From contig JAJRSF010000023.1 of assembly GCA_024278935.1 (NCBI GenBank), positions 1 through 64,000 of the forward strand: a stretch of DNA of 64,000 nt. The letters run 5' to 3'. The notes under the pieces are model-generated. The model saw only the letters and a program-made list of their open reading frames with translations, had not been told where the DNA came from and made no database searches. The position numbers were made by a program, and so were the translations under genes. Positions 5,668 through 23,258 of the stretch are shown piece after piece (position 1 is the first letter of the stretch; each line of letters starts with the position of its first letter). The DNA is from Candidatus Zixiibacteriota bacterium. Its GTDB lineage: Bacteria; Zixibacteria; MSB-5A5; GN15; FEB-12.

Positions 5668-8118
5668 TTAAAATGATGTTTTGAGGCCGAAGAAAATTTG
5701 TCGTGGTGGATTAAAATTCATCGGGTTGTTTTTAGCTAAATTATACAAACCTTCATATTCGGCACGATTCGTCTCAATATTTTCTATACCTGCGGGTGTG
5801 TTCAGAAAGGCGGTATTGGTTGGTGAACCTGTACCCGGATAGACTCCGGTGATATTTTCTTTATCCAAAAGATTTTTGACCAATATAAAAGCAGTAATGA
5901 ACTTATTTAAAAATTTGAATTCTTTTTCGAGTTTTAAATCGACAACTCTTGTAGCTTCGGACCTATCGCTATTAATAAAACCAGTTGGGTTTTCGTCAAC
6001 CGAACGGAAAGTTACCGCATCAAATGGCTGCATTGGAGTATATGGGTAGCCTGATTCTTGTTTGGCGATGATGTTAATTTTCAGACCAAAATTTGTTTGA
6101 TACGATGCCCCTGCAACTATTTTGTATGTGCGGTCATAATCAAGCGGGTTATCTTCTGCGGAACCACTACCATTGTTCCATAAGATATTTCTTGAGTATA
6201 AAACATCGTTCCCCTCTGCTTTACTTTTGGTAATGTCCACAAAACCTGTGAAGTTTTTACTGTTGTCATATTGTAGTATCAGGTTCAGCCCTATATATGA
6301 AGAGCTTCCAATATTTTTATAGGTAGTATAAGAATATGGGAATACAGCCTCAGGTACAATTGGAACAAGTTTATTTTCATACTCGACATTTGTAAGTTTC
6401 GCATCCAAACTCATTCTATCAGAGATTTTACTGCTAACACCTAAATTTATTGTGTTAGATTTCTGAGGTTCGATTGCACTATTTGCAAAAGTAGCTGGGA
6501 GTCCAGACCCTAATCGCACATCAAAGTAGTCCCATCCTTGGTACATATTACGATATGGCAGAATTTGATAATTTTGATTAAAACTAAAATAGAGCTTTGT
6601 GTTATCGTCTATTTTAAAATCTAGTCCAATATGAGGATTAAAACTGGTTTGCACATCAGCTTTCACCAAATCGGTTTCATCAATTGTTTGATCAGCGGCA
6701 TCAAGTGTATCAGGGTCAAATGGGCTTAGAGGGTTCTTTAATCGTAAGGCATCATAATCATAACGGTCAAAACGAAAACCGAAATTTAGTGTGACATCTT
6801 CTAAAGAAATTATATCATTAAAATAGAGAGAAGTCTCTTTAGGTTCTTTGGCGTCATTTTGGTAAGTTTCATCATCTGATTCATTACCGTTAGCATCAAA
6901 ACCATAACGATTCAGATATAGTGCTACAGGAATCAGACTACCATTCTCTAAAGTTGCGAAGCTATGGTTGAAGTATCTTAAATTATATTTTTTATAGAGA
7001 AGCCCTATTTTTATTTGGTGTATTTCATTGTATGTATGATTGACCTCTCCCCTGAATTGTTTGTAGGTTGAGATGTGACGCTGGAAACCGTCATAATATG
7101 ATTCGACATATGATCCATTAATACCGGCATAAGCACCTTCTCTAAAAAGTCCATAGTTATCAAATTGAGGATTATAAAAATTGCGAGAATAAGCTTCTAA
7201 ATCATCTAATAGGACACCATCGCCGTCGATGTGTTCCGATTTAAAATAACCGTATGAGATATTGATGTCTGTGTTTTTTGAAAGCTTGTGTTCTATCAGA
7301 GCATTAATGCCAAAGTTATCATCTTTATTTCTTGGCGTGTGGGCAATTTGGTTTGGTTCATCCGGGTTGTTAAAATAATGCCGATATTCCTGCCACTCAT
7401 CGGTGGTTGCATCGGCTGTGATTGTGAAAAGAGATTTTGCTGACAATTCATACTGCAGTTTGCCATGGTATGTCCAACCGGAGAGTTGATTGTTCGGGAG
7501 AATGTCCGGACTTCCATCGAGAACATCCGATGTCAATGATGATGGCAAGCGATCGCCGAGCCATTTCCGTTCAAAGGCAGTCCAGAATTTGAGTTTATTA
7601 TTTTTGGAAAGTGAACCAGAGAAAGTACCTCGATAATAATTTTGGTCAAATTTGTTTCCGACGAAATTATCTGAAGATGTTTCTACATAACCTTGCAGAT
7701 TATTTGAGAGAGCAGGACTTGTTAGAACCGTTACAGCAGAATTTGCATTGCTGTATTGAATCGGGATTGCCCCTAAGTATGAATTTATGTTTTCAAAAAA
7801 TGGAGTTGCGAGAGAAATATTACTGCGTCCTGTAAGTGGGTTGCGAAATGACAAGCCATTGATAATAAGGTCATGGCTGAAATCGTCTCCTCCAAAGAAA
7901 TGCAGTTCCGGTGAGTTTATCGCAAACCGATTATTGTTGTAATTGCGATACATTTCTACTGTTGAACTTTGGTAACCGAGATATTCCTGATGGTTTCGGC
8001 TTAATGAGTTGAGTATTGATTCTCTTACGTCGGTAGAATCTTCCGATGTTGCATTCGCTGTTGATATGCTTAGTAACAATGCCAATGAAATAGTAGTGAT
8101 GGTTTTGAGTATATGCAT
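5668..8118 (-). CDS. TonB-dependent outer-membrane receptor
   Basis: 816 residues. A signal peptide (MHILKTITTISLALLLSI, cut near ANA) is followed by a plug-like domain at about 60-150 (HDLIINGLSFRNPLTGRSN and AVTVLTSP) and a long barrel with alternating aromatic strands ending in a C-terminal Phe (IFFGLKTSF). The plug is short and lacks an obvious TonB box. The family imports siderophores, vitamins or glycans energised by TonB. The gene is monocistronic: promoter at 8158-8186, terminator at 5637. No neighbour reveals the substrate. Confidence 0.85.
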   Translation of the reverse strand: MHILKTITTISLALLLSISTANATSEDSTDVRESILNSLSRNHQEYLGYQSSTVEMYRNYNNNRFAINSPELHFFGGDDFSHDLIINGLSFRNPLTGRSNISLATPFFENINSYLGAIPIQYSNANSAVTVLTSPALSNNLQGYVETSSDNFVGNKFDQNYYRGTFSGSLSKNNKLKFWTAFERKWLGDRLPSSLTSDVLDGSPDILPNNQLSGWTYHGKLQYELSAKSLFTITADATTDEWQEYRHYFNNPDEPNQIAHTPRNKDDNFGINALIEHKLSKNTDINISYGYFKSEHIDGDGVLLDDLEAYSRNFYNPQFDNYGLFREGAYAGINGSYVESYYDGFQRHISTYKQFRGEVNHTYNEIHQIKIGLLYKKYNLRYFNHSFATLENGSLIPVALYLNRYGFDANGNESDDETYQNDAKEPKETSLYFNDIISLEDVTLNFGFRFDRYDYDALRLKNPLSPFDPDTLDAADQTIDETDLVKADVQTSFNPHIGLDFKIDDNTKLYFSFNQNYQILPYRNMYQGWDYFDVRLGSGLPATFANSAIEPQKSNTINLGVSSKISDRMSLDAKLTNVEYENKLVPIVPEAVFPYSYTTYKNIGSSSYIGLNLILQYDNSKNFTGFVDITKSKAEGNDVLYSRNILWNNGSGSAEDNPLDYDRTYKIVAGASYQTNFGLKINIIAKQESGYPYTPMQPFDAVTFRSVDENPTGFINSDRSEATRVVDLKLEKEFKFLNKFITAFILVKNLLDKENITGVYPGTGSPTNTAFLNTPAGIENIETNRAEYEGLYNLAKNNPMNFNPPRQIFFGLKTSF

Positions 8119-8157
8119 TTTTCTCCCTTAATTATTATAAATGTATTACTGCTCTTT

Positions 8158-8186
8158 TAAATTAACAAATGATTAAAGACAGTCAA
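8158..8186 (-). promoter_or_regulatory. Promoter-like sequence of the TonB receptor gene
   Basis: On the minus strand TTGACT, a 17-base spacer and AATTTA lie about 40-70 bases before the ATG. The start also has aagggag as a ribosome site. The rest of the 301-base divergent gap up to 8419 shows no gene; a TATAAT-like box sits near 8356 on the plus strand without a clear -35. Confidence 0.5.
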
Positions 8187-8419
8187 GTAAACTATGTGTT
8201 TTTCTACGGCGTTTTAGGAATAGACGAGACAGGAAAGCCAGTTCTCACAAAACTACTGCTCATTATCGTAAACAAATTTAACCTTGACTTTGGGGTGAAA
8301 ATTCGAGTTTTTACAAGCAGATAAAGAGAAACAGGTATCATATTTTAAATGGCATTATAATTGAGCAACTTATGTTAAAAATATGCGTATCAACAGTATA
8401 ACTTGCGGAGGCAGGACTT

Positions 8420-8761
8420 ATGAAATTGACTGACCGCGAAGAAAACGGTGTAATGATATTAGAACCAGCCGGTAAAATTATGGGTGGTCCCGATGCGAGC
8501 CTTTTACATGATAAATTATACGAATTTATAGATCAGGACAAAAAGAAATTCGTAGTCGATTTATCACAAGTTGATTGGATGAATTCAACCGGGCTTGGCA
8601 TTTTAATATCAGCATACACAACACTTCGTAACAATGACGGCAAGCTGAAACTAGCAAACGTCACAGAAAAAATAAAATCATTACTCGTCATAACGAAACT
8701 TGATCCGGTATTTGAATCATATGACTCAATAGCTGAAGCGATAGAGTCGTTTAACGAATAA
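8420..8761 (+). CDS. STAS-domain anti-sigma factor antagonist
   Basis: 113 residues, the usual length of a SpoIIAA/RsbV protein. The phosphorylatable serine lies in the conserved WMNSTGLGILISAY loop (about residue 56). Known role: the unphosphorylated form binds a cognate anti-sigma kinase and frees its target. A strong gcggaggcagg site precedes the ATG. The next two genes supply the matching kinase and phosphatase, forming a partner-switching set. A hairpin at 8790-8816 separates it from the kinase gene and may lower downstream expression. Confidence 0.9.
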   Translation: MKLTDREENGVMILEPAGKIMGGPDASLLHDKLYEFIDQDKKKFVVDLSQVDWMNSTGLGILISAYTTLRNNDGKLKLANVTEKIKSLLVITKLDPVFESYDSIAEAIESFNE

Positions 8762-8789
8762 AAAACTTTTGCAGATAAATATATTTGCG

Positions 8790-8816
8790 GGCAGACACCA
8801 AACAATAGCGTCTGCC
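8790..8816 (+). terminator. Hairpin between STAS and kinase genes (attenuator-like)
   Basis: ggcagac and gtctgcc pair across a 13-base loop and are followed by tcttttctt. The T tract is imperfect, so partial termination or mRNA protection between the antagonist and the kinase gene is likelier than a full stop. Confidence 0.5.
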
Positions 8817-8838
8817 TCTTTTCTTAGGAGAACCAGGC

Positions 8839-9261
8839 ATGCATGAACCTATTATCAAAGGCAACATGATTTCTATCCCCTCCAGCCTGGAGTATCTAAC
8901 TAATATTGATGATTTCATCGAAGGAATCCTTCGCGGATTTGAAGTCGAAGATTCTCTCATTGCCGACATTGCTATTTCAGTTTCTGAACTGGTGAACAAT
9001 TCGGTCAATCATGGAAACCATTCTGATTCTGACAAAACTGTATCTGTTTCTATTTCCAAAAAAGGAACCGATATCGAGATTATGATTGAAGACCAGGGTC
9101 AGGGGTTTAATCCTCAGGAAATTTCGAATCCATTAGATGAAGAAAATCTATTAAAAGATACCGGGCGGGGCATTTTTATTGTTAATGCGTTAATGGATAA
9201 AGTTGATGTAAAAACAACATCAAGTGGAACAAAAACAACAATTACCAAGTCTATTGCATAA
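8839..9261 (+). CDS. Anti-sigma factor serine kinase (RsbW/SpoIIAB-like ATPase domain)
   Basis: 140 residues of a single HATPase fold: N box SELVNNSVNHGNH, G1 region EDQGQGFNP and G2 region DTGRGIFIVNALMD. In the family this protein phosphorylates the STAS antagonist and sequesters a sigma factor or other target. Ribosome site ttaggagaac. It is followed 22 bases later by the phosphatase gene. No sigma factor gene lies in the window, so the target is unknown. Confidence 0.9.
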   Translation: MHEPIIKGNMISIPSSLEYLTNIDDFIEGILRGFEVEDSLIADIAISVSELVNNSVNHGNHSDSDKTVSVSISKKGTDIEIMIEDQGQGFNPQEISNPLDEENLLKDTGRGIFIVNALMDKVDVKTTSSGTKTTITKSIA

Positions 9262-9283
9262 GAAATAAGGTCTAATATCTTTA

Positions 9284-11532
9284 ATGAATATTGAATTGAT
9301 TCAATCAATACTATATTTTCTTATCGGTGGATTTTTAATCTTTTTAGCAATAACCATCGTACGAGACAATATCGGCAACCGATTAAACCGCACATTTGGA
9401 GCTACGCTCTTTTTGCCGGTATCGGTCCGTTGTTTATTGCATTAGGATTGATACTCGACACATCGGTAATTGCTGTTGAAAATTTTGAAGAGTCAGTATT
9501 GTTTAATTTACATTATATTTGGGAATTCTTTTTCCCTCTTCTTCTGTTATTCTCATGGATATTCCCACAGGATAGATTAAAACAATTTAAGCATTCCCGA
9601 ATACGGTATTTCATTTTTACTCCACAAATAATGCATCTGATTATTATAATATTTGCTGCTGATTTCATAGACTTTTTCCAGTCAATGCAAATAGGAAACA
9701 ACAGCGAAGGTTTTTCTGCTATTATATTAAAACCATTTTCGATGTTTATAAACCTGGCGACTTTCTTTGTTTCGTTCATTAGAGAATATCACACAATTAT
9801 CTTTGGAATGTTTAATATCTTCTTTGCGATAGGAACTATCTATTTCCTTGAGTCGGGTAAAAAGTTAATATCAAATCCTCGTATATTGACCCAGACAAAA
9901 GTTATAAATTGGGCGGCACGGATTTCTTTGGGTTCATATATATTTGCTATTTTAGGTGCTGCTTTATTCCCTCAATATATAAACAATACATTTAGCTCTG
10001 TACTCATTTTGGTAGCAATGATAACCGGTACATCACTTATAATTTATGCAACTTTGAGATACCAATTTTTGGATGTACGTTTAGTGTTCAGACAATCGTT
10101 TGTCTATTCGATAACATCGGCAATGTTTGTCGGGCTTTACATAGGACTAGTTATACAATCAAAAGCTATCTTAGTACCTATCTTTGGTGAGCAGGCAAAT
10201 ATTATAAATTATGTCATCATCGGATTACTGCTTTTACTCTTTCAACCTATAAACAATTGGATAGATGAATTCACCCGTTCATTCTTTATGCGTACGCAAA
10301 CAGATCATCGAAATGTTATCGAACGTTTTTCAAGGCAGGTTATCTCGTTATTTGATCCGTTGAAACTTCGGCAGATAATTGAAGAGACCCTCAAGACGAC
10401 TCTTCTTGTAGAAAGTATTCATTTTATATTATACGATGATACGATTAACGAATATGTCCTTTTTAAAGGTGAGAAACAAAAGCTGAAGCTCTCTCGTGAA
10501 GACCTTCTGTTGCGGGGTATCAATCAATTAGATACGCCAACATTTATGCAGTCGTTGGGAGACTATACAAAAGATTCCGAGCTTGCTCAAGAACTTGAAA
10601 GGCTTAATATAAAATTAGTTCTTCCAATGAAAGACGCCGACCATCTTCTCGGATTTTTAGCTCTAACATCAAAAGCTGCCGGGTATAATTATTCGGCTGA
10701 GGATTTGAATCTCTTAGGAGTGCTGTCCAATCAGATGGTATCGGCACTGACTAACGCACGGCTCTATGTAGACTCGTTAGAACGAGTGCGTTTACAGGAA
10801 GAAGTATCGATGGCTCGTGAGATTCAGTTAAACTTATTACCATCAACTCCACCGAGACATTCTTGTATGAAAATTTCTGCCCACTCGACCCCATCGAGAA
10901 CTATTGGAGGCGATTTCTACGACTTCGTGTATAAGGATAAGAACAACCTTGGGATCTGTATCGCCGATGCATCGGGCAAAGGTATGCCGGCCGCTCTCAT
11001 GATTGCACAGACACAGGCGATTTTAAAAAGTGAAGTGAACAATGGCACTCCGATTGATGTGATGCTTAAAAATATGAATAAACAATTAGTGGAATCGTCA
11101 TCGTCGGAAAAATATGTAACGTTGTTCTACGGTGAGTTAGATACTGAAAAAGGATATTTCCATTATTCTAACGCTGGGCATAACTACCCATTTCTTGTCA
11201 GAGCAAATGGCGATGTTGAACTTTTAAAAACCGGCGGTCCTATTATTGGAGCTTTACCTGATATGTGTTATCAGTCTGAGACCGTTCGGTTATTTAAAGA
11301 TGACACTATATTCTTCTTTACTGATGGACTCTCGGAAGCTATGGATGACGACGATGTGGAATATTCTGAACAACGGATATATGATTTTGTAAATTTACAT
11401 AAGAAGAAAGAACCAAACGAATTGATAGATTTAATACTAAAAGATGTCAGAACTCATGACACAACATATCCGCCTCGTGATGACACCACGATTGTATCGG
11501 TCAGGATAAAGAACGGATTTGTTAATGAATGA
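9284..11532 (+). CDS. Membrane SpoIIE/RsbU-type PP2C phosphatase with GAF domain (frameshifted near N-terminus)
   Basis: The gene probably starts at the ATG at 9284: about 36 residues of membrane sequence (IQSILYFLIGGFLIFLA) run in one frame, then the protein continues one frame earlier from about 9397 (WSYALFAGIGPLFIAL). A missing T in the run at 9395-9397 would join them; the second frame alone has only a TTG start at 9430. After several membrane helices (to about residue 270) comes a GAF-like domain (about 300-460) and a PP2C domain with GGDFYDF, ADASGKGMPAALM, NAGHNYPFL and FFTDGLSEA. Expected to dephosphorylate the STAS antagonist in response to a membrane or ligand signal. It overlaps the Nudix gene. 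Confidence 0.85.
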
Positions 11533-12169: not shown

Positions 12170-13873
12170 ATGAGAAAAGTATCCATATATATTTGTCTAG
12201 GTATACTATTGATTGCAACAGCAGTTTCAGCGGTTGATTATAAAGAATATAAAATTAAGAAGAAACATAAAGATTATGTTGAAATCGTTTATAATCGTAC
12301 AAATAAAAAGATTACATTAGGAGCGATGAACGAAGAACAAACGCAAAGTATTCATCATGATACAGATGCCCATAGAATTTTACGTAAAGACGGGAAGATA
12401 CTAATAGTTGATACTAAATTTTCTATTGATAATATTACCGATTGTAAAGTCACGGAAGATGACAACAAAATTACGATCTCATTTTATACCGCAAAAGACA
12501 GTTCTAAGCTCACTCGATTTAAAAGAGGAAATCGGATATCAAACGATGCAGATATTTTAGTAAGTCAGGATGATTTTGTACGAGGAATGATTTTTTCTGT
12601 CTCCGGTGATATAACTATTGAAGGTGAAGTAAACAAAAATGTCGTCTCGCTCTTTGGAAATATATATGTTGTTGGCGATGGCGTTGTTCGTGGTGATTTA
12701 GCTACTATAAGTGGTAAAATTGATATCGAAAGTTCTGCTATTGTCTATGGTGAAATTTATGATCGCGAGAAAAAAGGACGGGGTTTAAAGCACCGTCGGT
12801 ATAGAGATAAAAGAGATTTTAATTATGACCCATATTTTTCATACAACCGTGTAGATGGTGCCGCGATTTCTTTAAAAGCGTATCATGAAGATATCGATTC
12901 TCTACTGCCAACTTTAGAAGCAGAAATCGGGATTGCATTTGCATCTGATAGAGGACGGTATAAATTCCTGATTGAGCAGACTCTGTTCCGTGAGAAATCT
13001 ATCGCTATCGGTGGGACATTTTATAGAGAGCTTGCTACTGAAGATGATTGGTTGATTGGCAAAGATGAAAACTCTTTCTTTGCTTTGATGGCAAAAGAAG
13101 ATTACAAAGATTATTATGAAGCTGAAGGTGGCACTCTCTATATGAAAGCGAGACCATCAAATCATTTTTCTGTAAAAGCCGGCTACTCGTATTATGAGTC
13201 AAATTGGCTACCATCTAACAGACATCTCTGGGCTATGCTACGTGGGGCTGATAAACTTTTTGATAAGAATTATACTTCTTGGGATGAGTCTCTGCGTTCG
13301 TCTGCCATAGCCGAAGTTGACACATCGGCGGTTGGATCTTTGTTTGGGTCGCTGCATTATTATTCCGATTCAACACAGTCAGAAACCGAACAATCGAATT
13401 GACATATTTTCTCTGATTTTGAATTTTCTCAAACCGGTCTTAATTCTGATTTTGATTATCATAGGTATATGATTACCGTAAGACGTTTGCAGGAAATCAA
13501 CGAGCAATCGACTTTCACCTTTCGGGCAGTCTTTGGAAACTCAGACGGATACCTTCCGGTGTACAAACAGTTCTATCTGGGTGGTTTGAGTACATTGCAT
13601 GGATATGCTCATAAGGAATTTACGGGGAATCGTTTTTGGATGACAAATTCTGAATATAAAATAGATTTCCCAAAATCTGAATTTGGGCTCTCTCTCTTTT
13701 GGGATGCCGGTCAGATTTCTGCTGGTAGTTTAGATTCTGATACTGAAATTAAACAGAGTATTGGGTTATCTTTCTTCTTTGAAGATGACTTTACACTGAC
13801 TGTCGCAAAACGGTTAGACCGTTCAACAAATGACTCACCTAAACTGTATTTACGGTTTAATCAGATCTTTTAA
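12170..13873 (+). pseudogene. Outer-membrane Omp85/D15-type barrel with bactofilin-like repeat segment, interrupted by one in-frame TGA
   Basis: One frame runs from the ATG at 12170 to 13873 except for TGA at 13400-13402. Order: signal peptide (residues 1-22, ending AVSAVDY); a basic N-terminal domain; residues about 145-200 of short parallel beta repeats (GDITIEGEVNKNVVSLFGN) like polymer-forming bactofilin segments; then a beta barrel. The part after the stop holds the best Omp85 signature (YLGGLSTLHGYAHKEFTGNR and a C-terminal Phe), so loss of it would abolish membrane insertion. Downstream of the TGA I see no SECIS-like stem. Sequence error or a recent nonsense mutation is likely. A strong terminator follows. 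Confidence 0.7.
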
Positions 13874-14110: not shown

Positions 14111-15862
14111 ATGCTAGAAAATAAGACTTTAAATGAATCTGGTTCACTGCCAGTAGACGTTTTTGCTGATTTAGAAGCAACTTTAGATGAAGTTGCTGAG
14201 TCTAATCCTCGGATTGATACAGCAGATACCGGTAATAAACACTCCGAAGATCTCCGTGCAATACTTGAGGCTTCGCTTGCAATCAACTCATCGCTTGATA
14301 TTGATGAGATATTACACATTGTAATGAACAAAGCGATAGAACTCATGCAGGCTGAACGAGGCTTGGTAATGCTTTTGGATGACAATAAAGAATTGCAGAT
14401 AAAAGCTGCCTTTAATTTAGAGAGTGAAAAGATGACTCCCGAAGAGTTAAAAATCTCTTCGACAATTACAAAGCAAGTGGTCAATACCGCAAAAGCAATT
14501 TACACTTCCGATGCATTAACTGATGAACGCTATGCCAATAAACAATCTGTAGTAGAATTGCATCTGAGATCAATTATGTGTGTCCCTTTAAAAGTCAAAG
14601 ATGAGTTGATTGGTGTAATCTATTTAGATAACTCAAGTCAGTCCAAAATGTTTTTGAAATCGGATCTCTATCTATTTGAGTTGTATGGTCAGATGGTATC
14701 TAATACGATTGATAATGCAAAAATATATAAATCTTTATATCAAATGGAACGTTACAATGACTCCGTAATTAAAAAATCACCGGTCGGTATAATTGTAATC
14801 GATCCAAAATGTCAGATAGCAACGATAAATTCTATAAGTCTAGAAATTTTTGATATAAATAAAGATGATATCAAAATTTTAAAAGATTCCGACACTCCAT
14901 CAAACTTTATTGACATGTTACCAGAAAAAGAAAAAGCTCGCTGGCGGTATATGATTAACGCAACACTTGCCACAAAAGAAGAATTTTCCAATGATAGATA
15001 TTTCCATAATACCGGCTATGTCGAAAAAGTATTGTCCTTAAAGATTTCTCCTCTTGAGCAACTGACTAATGGTTCTGACGGACTTATTATGACTGTTGAA
15101 GATATCACAGATAAAGTGCTGATGGAAAAATATGTTATTCTATCTGAGAAATTAGTAGCCAAAGGGGAAATGGCAGCATCTATTGCCCATGAACTAAATA
15201 ATTATCTTGCCATAGCATCTAATAATGCTGAGTTGCTTAACATTAATATCGAACGTGGTAAACTTGATAAAGTACAGTTTAACAGTAAGTCGATAATAGA
15301 TAATATTTTTAAGATTAAACGATTTGTAGATTCTCTGATGGACTTTTCTAAACCACAAACAGAATTTATAAATTATGATGTGAAGCACTTAATCGAGGAC
15401 CTTCTATTCTCGCTTCGTATACAACCTCGATTTAAACAAACACATTTTACTATTGATCTATCTCAAGAACTTCCTAATGTCGAAATTGATGTAGGACTTA
15501 TTCAGCAGGTTCTTATGAATCTCTTAAATAACGCAGCAGATGCAATTGAAGAAAAAGTCATCGCTCTTGATAATAAAGATGAAGAAGTCGCAAAAGAAAT
15601 CACGATAGTTTCATCTTATGAGACTGAAATCAATTCTATTAAAATCTCGATTACCGATTCTGGTCTTGGTATGACTGAAGAAACATTACAAAAAATATTC
15701 ACTAAGCATTTTACAACCAAAAAATCCGGTCATGGCTTAGGTCTTGCAAATTGTAAAAGTATCATAGAACAACATAATGGAAAATTAGAAGTAGAAAGTG
15801 TATTTGGAAAAGGTACAACGTTTACCGTTACCCTTCCCCGCACAAAGCTTAAACAAGAGTAA
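14111..15862 (+). CDS. Cytoplasmic GAF-PAS sensor histidine kinase
   Basis: 583 residues without membrane helices. A GAF domain (about 38-205: ILEASLAINSSLDIDEILH, RSIMCVPLKVKDELIGVIYLDN), a PAS domain (about 220-340), a HisKA helix with phospho-accepting His in ASIAHELNNYLAIASNNAE, and a HATPase domain with N box NLLNNAADAIEE, G1 DSGLGMTEE and G2 KSGHGLGLANCKS. The family phosphorylates a response regulator; none is encoded here. It ends six bases before the Ser/Thr kinase gene, so the two are probably co-transcribed and may share a pathway. Confidence 0.92.
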   Translation: MLENKTLNESGSLPVDVFADLEATLDEVAESNPRIDTADTGNKHSEDLRAILEASLAINSSLDIDEILHIVMNKAIELMQAERGLVMLLDDNKELQIKAAFNLESEKMTPEELKISSTITKQVVNTAKAIYTSDALTDERYANKQSVVELHLRSIMCVPLKVKDELIGVIYLDNSSQSKMFLKSDLYLFELYGQMVSNTIDNAKIYKSLYQMERYNDSVIKKSPVGIIVIDPKCQIATINSISLEIFDINKDDIKILKDSDTPSNFIDMLPEKEKARWRYMINATLATKEEFSNDRYFHNTGYVEKVLSLKISPLEQLTNGSDGLIMTVEDITDKVLMEKYVILSEKLVAKGEMAASIAHELNNYLAIASNNAELLNINIERGKLDKVQFNSKSIIDNIFKIKRFVDSLMDFSKPQTEFINYDVKHLIEDLLFSLRIQPRFKQTHFTIDLSQELPNVEIDVGLIQQVLMNLLNNAADAIEEKVIALDNKDEEVAKEITIVSSYETEINSIKISITDSGLGMTEETLQKIFTKHFTTKKSGHGLGLANCKSIIEQHNGKLEVESVFGKGTTFTVTLPRTKLKQE

Positions 15863-15868
15863 ACATAT

Positions 15869-18811
15869 ATGAAGCCGGCAACTACAGATCTGCCACAATT
15901 CGAATTTCTGGGCGAGCTAGGCACCGGTGGCACAGCACAAGTATGTAAAGTTCTCACGCAACAGAATAAAATTGTTGCACTCAAGACCTTATTGCAATCT
16001 GATAATATCTCCAGTGACGAATTTAAAAAACTTGCACAACGTGAGAAAACGCTTCTGTGCGGTATTGACTTTCCCGGTATTGTAAAAGTATATGAAGTTC
16101 AAACAAGCGACCCTTGTTATATCAGCCTAGAATATTGTAGTGGTAAGACATTAGAACATTATCTAAAACAGGATAATATACAGACAATTTTAAATATCCT
16201 TTCATCGATTGCAGTCAACTTAGAGTTCCTTAATTTAAAATCAATTATCCATGCCGACTTAAAGCCTGACAATATTTTTATGCCCGAAGATATTTCACAA
16301 TTTGCTTCAGGCAGATTGACATTCACAAAATTATCTGATTTTTCTATAGGTAAATTTGACCATGAAGAAATAACTGTTCGTGCCGGAGTTGGAACTGTAG
16401 GATATATGGCTCCTGAAGTAATCAATGATAATATTGTATCACATAAATCTGATCTGTTTGCTTTTGGAGTTATCGCTTATCAACTGCTGAGCGGAGTGCA
16501 TCCTTTTATCACCGACGATGCCGACCCGCTGAAAATCAATAGCCGTATTTTAGAAGATGAGCCTCTCCCTCTCTCAAATTATCGAGAGAACATTCCTGAG
16601 AAACTTATTAACATTGTATCGATGCTTCTAGAAAAAGATAGTGCAAAGAGACCTACATCCGCATGGGAAGTTTGTGCTATGCTTCGTGATGCCGGGGCAA
16701 CTTATCAATATGAAAAAGTTCTGCCCCCGAAGTATGCAATAACCCCTATCGCAGATTACGATACAAACAAATTCATAATTGCCAACTATCACGACAGACT
16801 GGATACGATTACAAATAAAGAGAACGACAAACTTCGTTTACTTCTCTCTTATAATTTTCTAAAAAATAATATTTCGTATGACAATAGAAAATTTAATTTT
16901 AAAAGCAATCCGTTAGTAACCCCGAATTTTCTGTATAAGGCGATGATACAATTTAACCAACTACAGTATACCGACAAGAAAAACAAAATTGAATCTTCGT
17001 TGTATGACGACTCACATGATTTAGTAGCATCGATACTTCCTCAATTTTTACGTCCCGCAACTATAATAAAAAGATCACAAAAATTAGCAATGAAATTTGA
17101 AGGCGAAAATAATTATGTCAAAGCAACGACTCTTTATTTATCTGCGGGAGAACTTCTTAAAGCAGAGAACAATGCCTATCAAGCGGCAATGCAATACAAA
17201 AATGAAAATAAAATTGAAGATGCCGTTAGATTGATTGATAAAGTTATTTCTTTCGGTGAACACGTTGATAGAAAGTTTGAGATCAAATCTTTGTATATGG
17301 TCAAGGGTGATTTCTTAAAAGATCAAGGCGATGTTGAGAGTGCTGAAATTGTTTACAATGAATTGATTGAGCTTTACAAAGGACATGAAGCAGATGAGCT
17401 ATTGGCTGAGACATATAAAGACTTAGGTGCTCTTTATCAGATGAGAAAGAAATCGCAAGAAGGGATTCCATCACTTGAAAAAGCTTTAGAGATATTTAAA
17501 AAACTTGGCAATGAATTAGAGATTTCAAAAACGTATAATAATCTTGGTAATATGTACAAAATAAAAAACAACTATTCTGAAGCACTAGGCTATTTTCGTC
17601 AAGCACTAAAGATACAAAGAAAACTTTCAGCAAGCGAAGAGATCGCATCGACTCTTAATAATATCGGCGTTACTCAAGCAATGAAAAGTCAATTTAAGAA
17701 AGCTTTAAAGATATTTAACCTATCCCTAATTATCCAAAAAGAGATTGGCAACAAGAGTGAGATAGCTCGTAGCTTAAACAATATTGGTTATTGTTATGAA
17801 GTTTTAGGAGAGACAGACAAAGCAGTTGAAGTATTGCAAGAGTCATTACAATACAACAAAGAGATTGATAGTAAAAAAGAGGTCTTGTATAATTTAGAGA
17901 ATCTGACTTCGATAATGTTTTTAACAGGACAACTTAAAAAGTCTATTAGTTTCCTCAAAGAAGGAATAGCTCTTTCAGCGGAACTAAATGATAAGCCTCA
18001 TATTAGTTTTTTCAATCTATACATGGGAATTGTACTTGTCAATATGGGGAAATTACAAGAAGCAAATAAATGTTTTCAAACTATTGAGAAAATACTACAA
18101 GAGATTGAAGACAATCCTCTACTTGTGCAACTTAATTTAGAAAAAGCCCAATTAGCAATATTTATAGATAATAAAGAAGAAGCATCTCATCTTATAGACA
18201 AAGCAGAGACTCTCAGTAAAGAATTAAAAGATAAAACTGTTAATGTTAAAATCACTCTTCTCCGATTATCAATTTCTGACGATGTATCACTTTTTGCTGA
18301 GGCTGAAGAAATCATAGATGAATTCAATTTAACAAAAGATAAATCTTATTTACATGCACTGAAGTTAAATCATCACCTTACGCATGACACTTCTTATAAT
18401 GTCCGTCAATCATATAAGTCGCTGACAGAATCGTTACAAAATTCTGACGAACATAAAGATGTGAGCAAATTACTTACGACACTCGCAAAGTATGAAATAT
18501 ACAATGACAATTCTGCACAGGCGACAAAGTATATTACACAATCTATGCAACTTGCAAAATCACGTGGGATGCTATTTGATCATTTCCATGCTTTAGTTTT
18601 GTACGGAGAAATTTTGAGCCAACAAAAAGAGTATGAAAAATGTTACACCGTATATAAACAATCATTTGAAATTTCAAAAAAGATATTTGTTGAGCTGGAA
18701 ACTGATGCTGATAAACATGCGTTCCAAAATAAAAGAGAATTCAAATTATTAGTTTCTGAAATTAAAAAATTGTCTCAAATAATTGGACAAAAAAAAGAGC
18801 AGATATTATAA
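15869..18811 (+). CDS. Ser/Thr protein kinase with C-terminal TPR array
   Basis: 980 residues. Residues about 10-280 are a Hanks-type kinase: glycine loop LGELGTGGTAQV, Lys in VALKTL, catalytic loop HADLKPDN (Arg of HRD replaced by Ala), SDFSIGKF in place of DFG, and GTVGYMAPEV. About 400-960 is a series of tetratricopeptide repeats (NNLGNMYKIKNNYSEALGYF, NNIGYCYEVLGETDKAVEVL). No membrane segment. The catalytic Asp and Lys are kept, so it may be active despite the variant HAD/DFS motifs. The TPRs would bind partner proteins, as in kinase-TPR proteins paired with histidine kinases. The stop lies inside the hairpin at 18795-18821. Confidence 0.9.
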   Translation: MKPATTDLPQFEFLGELGTGGTAQVCKVLTQQNKIVALKTLLQSDNISSDEFKKLAQREKTLLCGIDFPGIVKVYEVQTSDPCYISLEYCSGKTLEHYLKQDNIQTILNILSSIAVNLEFLNLKSIIHADLKPDNIFMPEDISQFASGRLTFTKLSDFSIGKFDHEEITVRAGVGTVGYMAPEVINDNIVSHKSDLFAFGVIAYQLLSGVHPFITDDADPLKINSRILEDEPLPLSNYRENIPEKLINIVSMLLEKDSAKRPTSAWEVCAMLRDAGATYQYEKVLPPKYAITPIADYDTNKFIIANYHDRLDTITNKENDKLRLLLSYNFLKNNISYDNRKFNFKSNPLVTPNFLYKAMIQFNQLQYTDKKNKIESSLYDDSHDLVASILPQFLRPATIIKRSQKLAMKFEGENNYVKATTLYLSAGELLKAENNAYQAAMQYKNENKIEDAVRLIDKVISFGEHVDRKFEIKSLYMVKGDFLKDQGDVESAEIVYNELIELYKGHEADELLAETYKDLGALYQMRKKSQEGIPSLEKALEIFKKLGNELEISKTYNNLGNMYKIKNNYSEALGYFRQALKIQRKLSASEEIASTLNNIGVTQAMKSQFKKALKIFNLSLIIQKEIGNKSEIARSLNNIGYCYEVLGETDKAVEVLQESLQYNKEIDSKKEVLYNLENLTSIMFLTGQLKKSISFLKEGIALSAELNDKPHISFFNLYMGIVLVNMGKLQEANKCFQTIEKILQEIEDNPLLVQLNLEKAQLAIFIDNKEEASHLIDKAETLSKELKDKTVNVKITLLRLSISDDVSLFAEAEEIIDEFNLTKDKSYLHALKLNHHLTHDTSYNVRQSYKSLTESLQNSDEHKDVSKLLTTLAKYEIYNDNSAQATKYITQSMQLAKSRGMLFDHFHALVLYGEILSQQKEYEKCYTVYKQSFEISKKIFVELETDADKHAFQNKREFKLLVSEIKKLSQIIGQKKEQIL

Positions 18812-18821
18812 ATCTGCTCTT
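18795..18821. terminator. Bidirectional terminator between the kinase and peptide genes
   Basis: aagagcagat and atctgctctt form a perfect 10-base-pair stem with a seven-base loop. On the minus strand it is followed by eight T, an excellent terminator for the small peptide transcript. The kinase gene stop codon is inside the loop. Confidence 0.88.
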
Positions 18822-18851
18822 CTAATAATTGTAAAAAATAAATTTTACTGA

Positions 18852-18926
18852 TTATTGATTACCGCTTGATAAACGTGGTGCAATACGGTCTTCGAGTTTT
18901 TCGATAGTCAATGTGTAATTAGTCAT
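18852..18926 (-). CDS. 24-residue peptide, candidate RiPP precursor
   Basis: A short frame with ATG at 18926 and TAA at 18852-18854. It is supported by an almost ideal Shine-Dalgarno (TAGGAGGTGA, four bases of spacer), a strong terminator 30 bases after the stop, and position just downstream of a PqqD-M50-HlyD gene on the same strand. The peptide has a polar N-terminus, a core IEKLEDRIAPRL and a Ser-Ser-Gly tail; there is no signal peptide and no Cys. The short length, the translation signals and the PqqD/protease/exporter neighbour suggest a peptide that is recognised, cut and exported. That function is inference; no modifying enzyme (radical SAM, LanM, YcaO) lies in the window. Confidence 0.6.
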   Translation of the reverse strand: MTNYTLTIEKLEDRIAPRLSSGNQ

Positions 18927-18927
18927 G

Positions 18928-18948
18928 AAATCACCTCCTAAGTGATTT
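18928..18948 (-). promoter_or_regulatory. Hairpin presenting the peptide ribosome-binding site
   Basis: AAATCAC and GTGATTT form a perfect seven-base-pair stem around TTAGGAG, which holds half of the Shine-Dalgarno; the other half (GTGA) is in the stem. It ends two bases before the start codon. Such a layout could tune translation of the peptide. Confidence 0.5.
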
Positions 18949-19008
18949 TAAGCTCAAGTAACCTTCCTATGGTGAAAGGGCTGTCATGTTTATCCAAAAG
19001 GATACTAT

Positions 19009-19036
19009 AAAATAAGTCATTATACTTATTCGTCAA
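19009..19036 (-). promoter_or_regulatory. Possible promoter for the peptide gene
   Basis: On the minus strand TTGACG (19031-19036) is followed by a T/A-rich region with TATTTT 16 bases later (19009-19014) or TTTATA 19 bases later. Neither -10 is perfect. It would give the peptide a separate transcript with a leader of about 70-80 bases. Confidence 0.35.
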
Positions 19037-19140
19037 GTGGTAATGGTCTTTGTAAGTCTATTTATTTTAATCCAGTTAAAAAACATACCTTTAAACATAT
19101 ATAAAAGCAATGTTAGGGAAAATATTTCCTAACGTAAAAA

Positions 19141-21454
19141 TTACCACATTGACCAGAATTCGACACGAATTATCGATGCGATGCGATGAACGATCAAATT
19201 GTACAATGTTGTCTCACCAATTTCTATTTTCGCATAGCCGGTCATACCTTTGCGAAGTTGATCATTTTGGTTACCAACAACGACAGAAATTTTGTAACTT
19301 GCTTTGTCATGCGTATCAATAATTGCATCGCGAGGTATATGCACGACTTTCCCAGAAAAAACTTTCGATGTATACGAACGTACTTTAATCTTTACCTCTT
19401 GATTAATTCTTATTAGATCAATATCAAAATCAGAAACAGGAACCAACACTTCAATCATACTATTATCCAAGACAGATAAAAACTGATCGTCATTTTTATT
19501 CATTCGTACCGTGCCGGGGATCATAGAAATAATCGACTGGGCATCTTTTTGCGTTTGCAGAAAATGAAGTTTAGCATTTTGCTTTTCAATTTGAGATGCA
19601 ATAACAGCTTCTTCCTCAGGCTTTGGTGGAGACATGATAAGAGAGAGCGTTGCTTTTTTATTTTGCAATTCAGCTTTGGCAATTGCTGATAAAGATACTG
19701 ATGCTTTATATTTTTCTTTTGGCTCAAGGTTCTTTTCATAAAGTTCTTTTAACAACAACTCATCCCGAAGACGTTGGTCGTAGATTGCCTGCGATGCGGA
19801 CACCGCTGCTTTTGCTTCGTTCACCTCTTCTTTTTTTGGAGGTGCTTTGAGCAAAGCCATATCAGAAAGCAATTGTTCAAGAGCAGACTGTTCCGAATTT
19901 ATTTCTCTGGTCACCTGATTAGAAACAAGCACCGCCAGAGTGTCGCCTTTGGTAATATGTGCACCATCTTTTACATACTGAATCAAATCAAGAGAGCCAA
20001 GTTCAAGAGATGCCATTTGGATATAACTTGTTTTTAGTTTTGCATCATCTCCACCCTGTTGAAATTTTTTCTCAAGCAGACCAAGTTCATTTAAAAGTAA
20101 TGAGTATTCAGCAATAGGTTCCACAACAATCTCACCGGAGATACGCTGTTTCATCGGGACAAAAAACAGCACGATAATTAAGAGAGCTAAAACAACAATG
20201 TAACTTACAAGTCTAAATGGTTTTTTCATAATTTCCTTTAAGTATCTCAAGTGTGTGAAAAATCCTTTTACGAATGCGACAATATTTTTTCGCACAGCAA
20301 ACATCAAAAAGAGATATAGTAAAATTAAACCGATTGTGCCTGTTTTTTCAAGCAAAAAGGATGATAATATTGAAAGAAAATAGAGGATGATAAATAGCGT
20401 GTAAACCGATGCTAATCCTGCGTAAATGATATAAATACGCCGTTTTCGCTTGTCTACCTCGATTTTTTCTATTGGCCAGCCGAGAAGAACTCGCTTAAAA
20501 AGATTACCGACATACGAAAAAGATTTATCGCGCAGGTTCGGAATGTCTAAATAATCTGAAAGCAGGTAGTAGCCATCGAGTTTAATAAGCGGGTTTAGAT
20601 TAAAAATCGCAGTCACCCAAATGACTATGACAAGTATTTGCGAAACATCATGGATGTAAGAACCGGGAACAGTCACACGCCAAACAATCATTGTTAAGGC
20701 GAGCAGAATAATTTCGGAGTATGGTCCCGCCCATGTAACTGCGAGCCGTTGGCTTTTTTTCTCAAAGAGCCATGCATCGGAAATGTCGCAATAAAAACAA
20801 GGTTGGAAATACATGAACAGAAATCCAAACTCGTTGACCTCTCCCCCATACATTCGGCAGGTGATTGCATGGGCAAATTCATGAATGACTATCAAGACAA
20901 AAAATGCGACCATAACAGTTATTATAGTACTGACGGAATACAGATCAAAAAGTGAGACGGCAAAGTTGGTATAGTTGGTCGCAAAAAGAATCAAACCAAA
21001 AAGTATAAACAAGCCTTGAAAAAGTAGACCTACAGGAGTATGAAAAGGTTTGTAAAGTTTGCTAGTAATGTCTAATGATTTCCCCGGCTTAAATGCTTTG
21101 AATTTTATGAAGAGAAGTTTTGCAAAGAGTGATCGTTTTTTTTTCGGAGCCATAACTTTTTCGTGAGGTTGCTTGTTCGGAACGACTGTTTTCCAAAAAG
21201 AACTGTGATTCAAGCATGCCAACAAATTGCAAGACAGCATTGGCATCTATATTGGCGTTAAATTTTTCACGGAATTTTTGAGCGATTTCATCATACGATG
21301 TGACCCCATCAAGTTGTGAGATTAGCCAAAACTCGGGTGCACGAAGTCTGAAATAATTTCCGCGAAGAGGGTCTTTGATATTAACGACATCTTGTCCATC
21401 AATGACCGTTTCTGAAGTTACTAAATCATTCCGTAATTTAGCGTATTGTTCCAT
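19141..21454 (-). pseudogene. PqqD-like / M50 membrane metalloprotease / HlyD adaptor fusion, frameshifted at an A9 tract
   Basis: Two frames join into one protein. From the ATG at 21454, about 100 residues are PqqD-like (VVNIKDPLRGNYFRLRAPEF, a winged-helix peptide-binding fold). At 21136-21144 an A9 tract shifts the frame; with A8 the protein continues EKKRSLFAKLLFIKF. It then has an M50 site-2-protease core (HEFAHAITC, NLNPLIKLDGYYLLSDYLDI) in a multi-helix membrane domain and, from about residue 420, a HlyD adaptor with a long coiled coil (EEVNEAKAAVSASQAIYD). The fusion is known from peptide-export loci. The 24-residue peptide follows. The shift could be a sequence error or be bridged by transcriptional slippage on A9. 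Confidence 0.78.
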
Positions 21455-21506: not shown

Positions 21507-23258
21507 TTATTTGCGGAGTGTTTCTATAAGCTGACGGTTGTAGTAGGCAACAAGGGCTTCACGATGAATAACGCCGATAACTTTATTTTCTTCGTATTCG
21601 TTTACAACAGGAAGCATTTTAAGGTCTTTGAGGTTAAACAGCTTAAATGCTTTCTCTAAATCATCATCAAAGTATATCAGGTCAGTATCAGTTTTTAATA
21701 AATCCTGTGCGATAACAAGGTAGTCAAGAGAATGTTGCGACAAGACCGAGCGGATATCCTGAAACGAGATAACCCCTTTTAAAAGCCCTCTATCATCTTG
21801 CACAACAAAATATGATTCGTTTGTGCTTTCGATCTGTTTAAAAATTTCACCCAACGGCGTCGAGGGAAGTATCGAAATATATTCTTCATTCATAATCTCT
21901 CGAACTTCATGCGATTTTAAAACATTGATATCTTTACCACCCCGAATATCAATTCCTCGTTTTGCTAATTTTATTGTATAGATAGAATGTTCAAATAATT
22001 TTCCGGCTACCAAAGCAGAAATAACAACAGTAAGCATAAGCGGTAAAATAATTCGATAGTCGGTAGTCATTTCAAAAATGATAAGCATAGCAGTCATCGG
22101 TGCGTGCGTTGTTGCGGCAACCATCCCAGCCATGCCGACCAGTGCATAAGCACCCGGCGATGCGGTCACTCCAGGGAATAAATAGGTAACTAAATATCCA
22201 TAGGCTCCCCCGGCAACAGCTCCCATAAACAGAGATGGAGCAAAAATACCACCAGAGTTACCTGAACCTAAAGTTAAACAGGTCGCAAGCATTTTTAAAA
22301 ATACAAGAACAAGAAGTAAGGCTATTCCAATTTCACCATAGAGAGTCAGCTTAATAGTTTCGTAACCATCAGCAAGAACCTGAGGATAAAAAATAGCAAG
22401 GCAACCTAAGAGTAGTCCACCGATTGCCGGTTTGAGGTATGGGGAAACTTTTAAGTCATCGAAAAAGTCTTAAACATAATCTAGAATGCGTGTGAACGAA
22501 ACCCCATAGCCACCAATCAAAACACCCATGACAATATAGAGTGGGATTTCCCATGCCGAGACTAATGAATAGCTTGGAATTTCAAAAGCCGGATGGTTGC
22601 CCATGATAGAACGAGTGACTACTGATGCGACCACCGATGATATGATAACAGGTGAAAAAGTTTTAATAGCAAAGTCGCCTAGAATAATTTCAAGCGAAAA
22701 TATTACACCTGCGATAGGTGCGTTAAAGACAGAAGTAATCCCCGCTGCTGCTCCGCAACCAACTAAGATTTTTACACGATCACCGGACATACGAAACATC
22801 TGTCCGATAGTTGAACCAATCGCTGAGCCGATTTGTACGATAGGACCTTCACGTCCTGCCGAACCACCAGAGCCGATACAAATAGCCGATGCTATCGTTT
22901 TGGCTACTGCTACCCGAGGGCGAATAATTCCGCCTAAACGAGCGACCGAGTTCATCACTTCAGGTACGCCATGTCCTTTTGCTTCTTTTGCAAATTTATA
23001 TACAATCGGACCTACTAGCAATCCACCAAGCATTGGAATTAGTGGAAGCCAGAATTTGAATCCTCGATCCCCCATAGTCTCGGTGAGGAATTCATCGGTG
23101 AGTCCAAAAAAGACCGAATTAAAATATTCGATAAGACGGATAAAACCAATAGCTCCCAAAGATGTTGCCAAGCCTACAAAAACAGCTAAAATAATCAGTA
23201 CATTGGTACCTGAAAGCTGGAACTTCTTTATCAGTTTATCTATCTTTGGTATATTCAT
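21507..23258 (-). pseudogene. ClC-family chloride channel/antiporter with CBS pair, interrupted by one in-frame TAA
   Basis: A single frame of about 583 codons from the ATG at 23258 to 21507, broken by TAA at 22470-22472. Before it: GSGGSAGREGP with the gating Glu, and repeated membrane helices. After it the frame continues in perfect register (DFFDDLKVSPYLKPAIGG), then GSGNSGGIFAPSLFMGA and two CBS domains (about the last 140 residues). The second half could start at 22292 but would lack half of each ion pathway. The family moves chloride, often against protons, across the inner membrane. The stop fits a change of one base from a Glu, Lys or Gln codon. Confidence 0.82.

Follow-up and report, generated by a model that had tools for sequence, protein, structure and literature searches.

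The window analysed here is a stretch of 64,000 nucleotides from a Candidatus Zixiibacteriota bacterium (contig JAJRSF010000023.1, positions 1 to 64,000), and it holds a tiny reverse-strand gene flanked by a fusion gene and a convergent kinase gene. The features of this locus are listed below in window coordinates.

14111..15862, + strand: conserved neighbour encoding a GAF-PAS-HisKA-HATPase histidine kinase, with 6 nt between it and the kinase-TPR gene
15869..18811, + strand: candidate receptor, a Ser/Thr kinase that carries a long TPR domain and whose gene converges on the peptide gene
18793..18823, - strand: terminator-like hairpin after the peptide gene, common to the convergent kinase gene
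18852..18926, - strand: peptide gene (24 codons, start ATG), product MTNYTLTIEKLEDRIAPRLSSGNQ, 24 aa; identified from sequence, profile and purifying selection
18855..18875, - strand: putative core, residues 18-24 (RLSSGNQ), with a tail that varies more and a presumed cleavage site
18876..18926, - strand: leader part, residues 1-17 (MTNYTLTIEKLEDRIAP), whose motif recurs with other, unrelated cores in a second phylum
18930..18939, - strand: near-perfect Shine-Dalgarno sequence AGGAGGTGAT, 3 nt before the ATG of the peptide gene
19141..21246, - strand: M50 metalloprotease and HlyD adaptor part of the fusion, with HEFAH and NPxxxxDGYY sites
21089..21454, - strand: PqqD-like RRE part of the fusion, here in a frame of its own; its fold matches that of lasso B1 proteins with bound leader
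21136..21144, - strand (nine T on the + strand): nine-base homopolymer where the fusion frames part

The first-pass annotation had described the tiny gene as carrying an almost perfect Shine-Dalgarno sequence and its own terminator, of which the former stands, while the latter is a terminator-like hairpin shared between two genes. A hairpin scan returned this one hairpin where 0.3 were expected, and it overlaps the end of the kinase gene that runs towards the peptide gene. A promoter scan of the locus remained at chance level, and an Rfam scan returned only a match to the L20 leader, which was likewise at chance level and was set aside.

Members of the peptide family follow the pattern YxLx[IV]ExLEx[RK][IV]AP, after which comes a G/S-rich tail of 6-9 residues that often ends in GGQ. 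A profile search over the window's phylum, which gave an E of 5e-11 for the peptide in its own genome, detected the peptide at E<1e-4 in 103 of 132 genomes, and these matches stand well clear of the noise; a degenerate pattern matched 86 of the 132 as against 3 for the reversed control. Amongst 87 distinct peptide genes, the residues of the L, L, E and P columns never change although 2-6 codons are in use at each, and pN is lower than pS in 3724 of 3741 pairs; at the genus level pN is 0.06-0.08 and pS 0.32-0.48. Equal rates of synonymous and nonsynonymous change, the outcome named at the outset as counting against the peptide, did not occur, and the ORF is a genuine gene, subject to purifying selection. 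Small frames with the leader motif, which the first reading had suggested looking for near fusion genes, were found across the phylum and in a second one. In families f1-f3 the peptide gene is on the same strand as the fusion gene and 70-1800 nt 3' of it, loci cut by a contig end being left out of this range.

The segment IEKLEDRIAP, previously taken as the core of the peptide, turned out to be its conserved leader, the short tail RLSSGNQ being the core. Within the window's phylum the tail changes more than the leader (pN 0.47 versus 0.29), and the C-termini vary freely (GAE, SID, AGS and GGL as well as the frequent GGQ), so that the small precursor combines a conserved leader with a separate, more variable core, as expected of an RRE-dependent RiPP. 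The decisive loci, however, are those of the second phylum. Searching 254 out-of-phylum genomes gave a single convincing match, in G215, where MSEFTLSVETLEERIAP is followed by a 37-residue core rich in Gly, Val and Cys and the peptide gene lies ~140 nt upstream of the closest out-of-phylum fusion gene. The order to which G215 belongs has 12 fusion genes in 11 of 60 genomes, and just upstream of nine of these genes we find 1-4 small ORFs having the leader [VI]ExLExRIAP joined to unrelated cores, such as GSKDDHGSK repeats or Cys-rich tails; two of the remaining three are cut by contig ends, and the third (G432) is without the RRE part and shows no peptide. The same leader before unrelated cores identifies LExRIAP as leader and RLSSGNQ as the core in the window, and at the level of sequence this combination of conserved leader and variable core is the logic of a precursor. 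The cores of the second phylum are long, unlike the short GGQ tails of the window's phylum.

In the 254 genomes, G215 excepted, a loose leader pattern matched as often as its reversed control did, the matches inspected lay inside long frames, and the pattern was rejected as a source of candidates. Small ORFs near the fusion relatives in six out-of-phylum genomes (G159, G285, G266, G306, G218 and G187) had no common motif. Directly after the second-phylum fusion gene, four loci (L175, L179, L182 and L185) encode a conserved protein of 323-338 aa with the motif NGTHRAY, one examined member of which had no Pfam match. Additionally, in genus g30 of the window's phylum the peptide is multiplied to 4-7 copies adjoining the fusion; the tandem arrays comprise seven genes in L039 (genome G043, ~7600-9350) and four in L038 (genome G047, ~7540-8660), with the core S[RK][YFW]G[ATV][DE], in a genus that has no kinase-TPR gene.

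The locus had also been called minimal, a description that overlooked the Ser/Thr kinase-TPR gene. This convergent gene is the nearest partner of the peptide across the phylum: in 69 of the 76 genomes that could be assessed, 10-513 nt separate the two, and it stays beside the peptide even in families whose fusion gene is elsewhere. Its product has conserved catalytic residues and a confident structure model, and the GAF-PAS histidine kinase is its usual companion. The gene has been lost in g30, is located elsewhere in G027 and is kept in G013 and G044, which have neither fusion nor peptide, and it is therefore not a strictly obligate partner. The context fits a sensor of the peptide, short of proof.

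The proposed fusion of PqqD-like, M50 and HlyD parts is borne out for all three parts by fold comparison; the single frame holds in relatives with complete genes (about 770-860 aa) but not in this contig, where a frameshift places the PqqD part and the M50-HlyD part in different frames. The frameshift at the nine-base run is probably an assembly error, assembly indels being the likely cause because the nearby CLC and outer-membrane genes are also split relative to their counterparts. A programmed frameshift was considered and is unnecessary, given the single frame of the relatives and the further broken genes in this contig. The CLC chloride channel with CBS domains occupies two frames (21507-22292 and 22470-23258, - strand) and a single frame of ~583 aa in relatives, in many of which it is directly upstream of the fusion gene. 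The Omp85/DUF5686-like outer-membrane protein is divided by a frameshift as well (12170-13402 and 13469-13873, + strand) and unsplit in relatives.

In an AlphaFold2 model of the fusion protein (pLDDT 84.8), residues 3-89 resemble the lasso B1/RRE proteins, which are known leader binders: Z is 10.6 for the leader-bound 6jx3 (chain 6jx3_B; rmsd 2.4 over 83 residues) and 9.9 for 5v1v. No lasso cyclase is seen near the window locus, and the leader motif differs. Residues 124-308 match SpoIVFB (8vjl, Z 10.2), and residues 411-758 match MacA (9qgy, Z 14.8, rmsd 13.8 over a flexible length), with MacA, EmrA and AcrA as the fold matches of the adaptor part. The RRE assignment comes from the fold, for the RRE part scores below Pfam's PqqD cut-off and its sequence profile had no significant match in the PDB. 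The M50 part of the window frame scores 41.7 bits against PF02163, above the cut-off, and has the features of a site-2 protease in its membrane domain, fold, HExxH site and second-ligand motif, HExxH and NP...DGYY (H191, E192, H195; N287, P288, D293) being invariant in 30 fusion sequences. The HlyD part of the window frame is below the Pfam cut-offs and is likewise assigned by its fold, which has the barrel-sandwich, hairpin and beta-barrel arrangement of periplasmic adaptors. The models thus support an RRE resembling that of lasso B1 proteins, a SpoIVFB-like M50 domain and an adaptor of the MacA/EmrA type within one protein. No energised pump or outer-membrane partner of the fusion was identified; relatives of the Omp85/DUF5686-like protein occur near the locus in 21 loci, and it could be such an outer-membrane partner.

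Considering these observations together, we hold with reasonable confidence that the 24-aa precursor is bound, cut and exported by the RRE-M50-HlyD protein as an unmodified signal core, for which the kinase-TPR protein is the best candidate reader. The precursor would consist of the leader M-x-x-Y-x-L-x-[IV]-E-x-L-E-x-[RK]-[IV]-A-P and a short core, here RLSSGNQ. The N-terminal RRE domain would, by analogy, bind the leader; the M50 site would make its cut within the inner membrane or at its surface, probably close to ...AP, and the HlyD domain would deliver the freed core to a channel in the outer membrane. Most likely, the core in the window's phylum is a secreted signal peptide of 6-9 residues that carries no modification, and the Ser/Thr kinase-TPR protein together with the GAF-PAS histidine kinase may read it.

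Whether the product is a RiPP in the strict sense depends on modification. Across 41 loci, no modifying enzyme is conserved in the neighbourhood, and in agreement with the first-pass annotation, which had seen no classic modifying enzyme, neither YcaO nor SPASM radical SAM was found anywhere in the window's genome, with positive controls; a search for LanB-type enzymes matched 0 control genomes. With these two families not found, the peptide is probably trimmed but otherwise unmodified, and the designation 'RiPP' in its strict sense is unproven. That enzymes from other loci modify the core ahead of cleavage and export is accordingly unlikely in our estimate, even though the cores of the second phylum are Cys-rich and repetitive and the family best matched by the RRE and M50 parts is the daptide intramembrane metalloprotease NF041824. 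This family joins a PqqD-like domain and M50 in one chain and is matched nearly end to end; however, the fusion protein scores 199-215 bits where the family cut-off is 300, carries a HlyD adaptor in addition and goes with an unrelated precursor, no other daptide enzyme was found nearby, and no daptide tailoring enzyme appeared amongst the clustered conserved neighbours, which are only partly annotated. The short G/S/Q cores also offer few classic modification sites. A second known system, in which the M50 protein EpeP is thought to cleave and export EpeX (PMC10885120), offers a precedent for cutting and export of a ribosomal peptide by an M50 protease. It differs from the present locus, where RRE and HlyD are fused on, no radical-SAM epimerase was found and the match to the YydH/LiaK family NF058609 is weak (~45 bits versus 225).

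The fusion protein might instead be a general processing and export machine with several substrates, the peptide being one of them or its regulator and the kinase incidental. We regard this as quite unlikely, notwithstanding the location of the fusion gene away from the peptide in families f4, f9, f12 and others, and the occurrence in other phyla of RRE-M50-HlyD relatives with no such peptide nearby. Amongst the 132 genomes of the phylum, 97 have both peptide and fusion, 4 the fusion only, up to 7 the peptide only and 24 neither (11 mismatched; Fisher p about 3e-16, a value inflated by shared ancestry because the peptide is conserved mostly within one phylum), in line with the expectation that relatives keeping the fusion would keep the peptide. 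The mismatches are mostly incomplete MAGs, and at least one of the genomes scored as peptide only, G021, does hold part of a fusion gene, cut off where its contig ends. Several genera are without both genes. In G013 and G044 (loci L126 and L127) the CLC gene directly abuts the convergent kinase-TPR gene, and fusion and peptide are therefore missing as one block. Such tight co-occurrence and joint loss, along with the same adjacency of precursor and fusion in the second phylum, argue against a general machine and support the view that peptide and fusion belong together.

That the peptide is a carrier on which a C-terminal residue is built up before release by M50, as in pearlin-like or cofactor-like scaffold systems, is highly improbable: the M50 proteins TglG and TmoG do free C-terminal residues from reusable scaffolds (PMC10885120) and the peptide is single-copy, highly conserved and often ends in GGQ, but no PEARL enzyme is nearby, the C-termini vary as described, the cores of the other phylum are long and variable, and an export adaptor is fused on.

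Returning to a secreted, unmodified signal, a parallel exists in the RRNPP quorum-sensing systems (Rap, NprR and PlcR), in which a short linear peptide is exported and the gene for a TPR protein adjoins it. The window locus similarly encodes a short peptide, predicted to be exported, beside a TPR protein, an arrangement seen in the 69 genomes noted above. Here, however, the TPR protein is a Ser/Thr kinase, its gene is convergent, the envelope is of the Gram-negative type, and binding of the peptide by the TPR protein is hypothetical. Between a signal and the bacteriocin that had been offered as the other option, a signal is favoured, though not proved, by the TPR kinase and by a core that is conserved and present in single copy.

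A description of this peptide family was not found in the papers searched, where motif strings gave only irrelevant letter matches, and M50 or HlyD went unmentioned in the portions of RRE-mining papers available as text. Large exported proteins of planctomycetes carry LEPR-XLL or LEDR-type motifs at their N-termini. The similarity to LE-x-R-...P is a lead only, as the motif here is on a stand-alone peptide and peptides of the window's phylum have no NCBIfam match. The earlier interpretation is thus partly supported and its central idea strengthened: there is a real and apparently undescribed leader-peptide family, together with a single-chain recognition-protease-adaptor protein, in two phyla.

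More tentatively, and on balance doubtfully, the system may represent peptide communication across a whole phylum of a Gram-negative-type lineage, in which one chain recognises, cuts and exports, and the kinase-TPR protein and histidine kinase sense a peptide of 6-9 residues, another phylum exporting diversified cores with the same leader and machine. The precursor family is marked by a clear leader motif, ExLExRIAP, and goes with a candidate one-protein machine for recognition, cutting and export in two phyla; the leader may serve as a handle for finding more precursors whose cores vary. For bacteria that are known largely through metagenomes, this would connect a secreted, conserved peptide with a TPR kinase as its candidate receptor, and the parts are few enough for rebuilding in a laboratory host, which makes peptide signalling beyond the classic Gram-positive systems directly testable.
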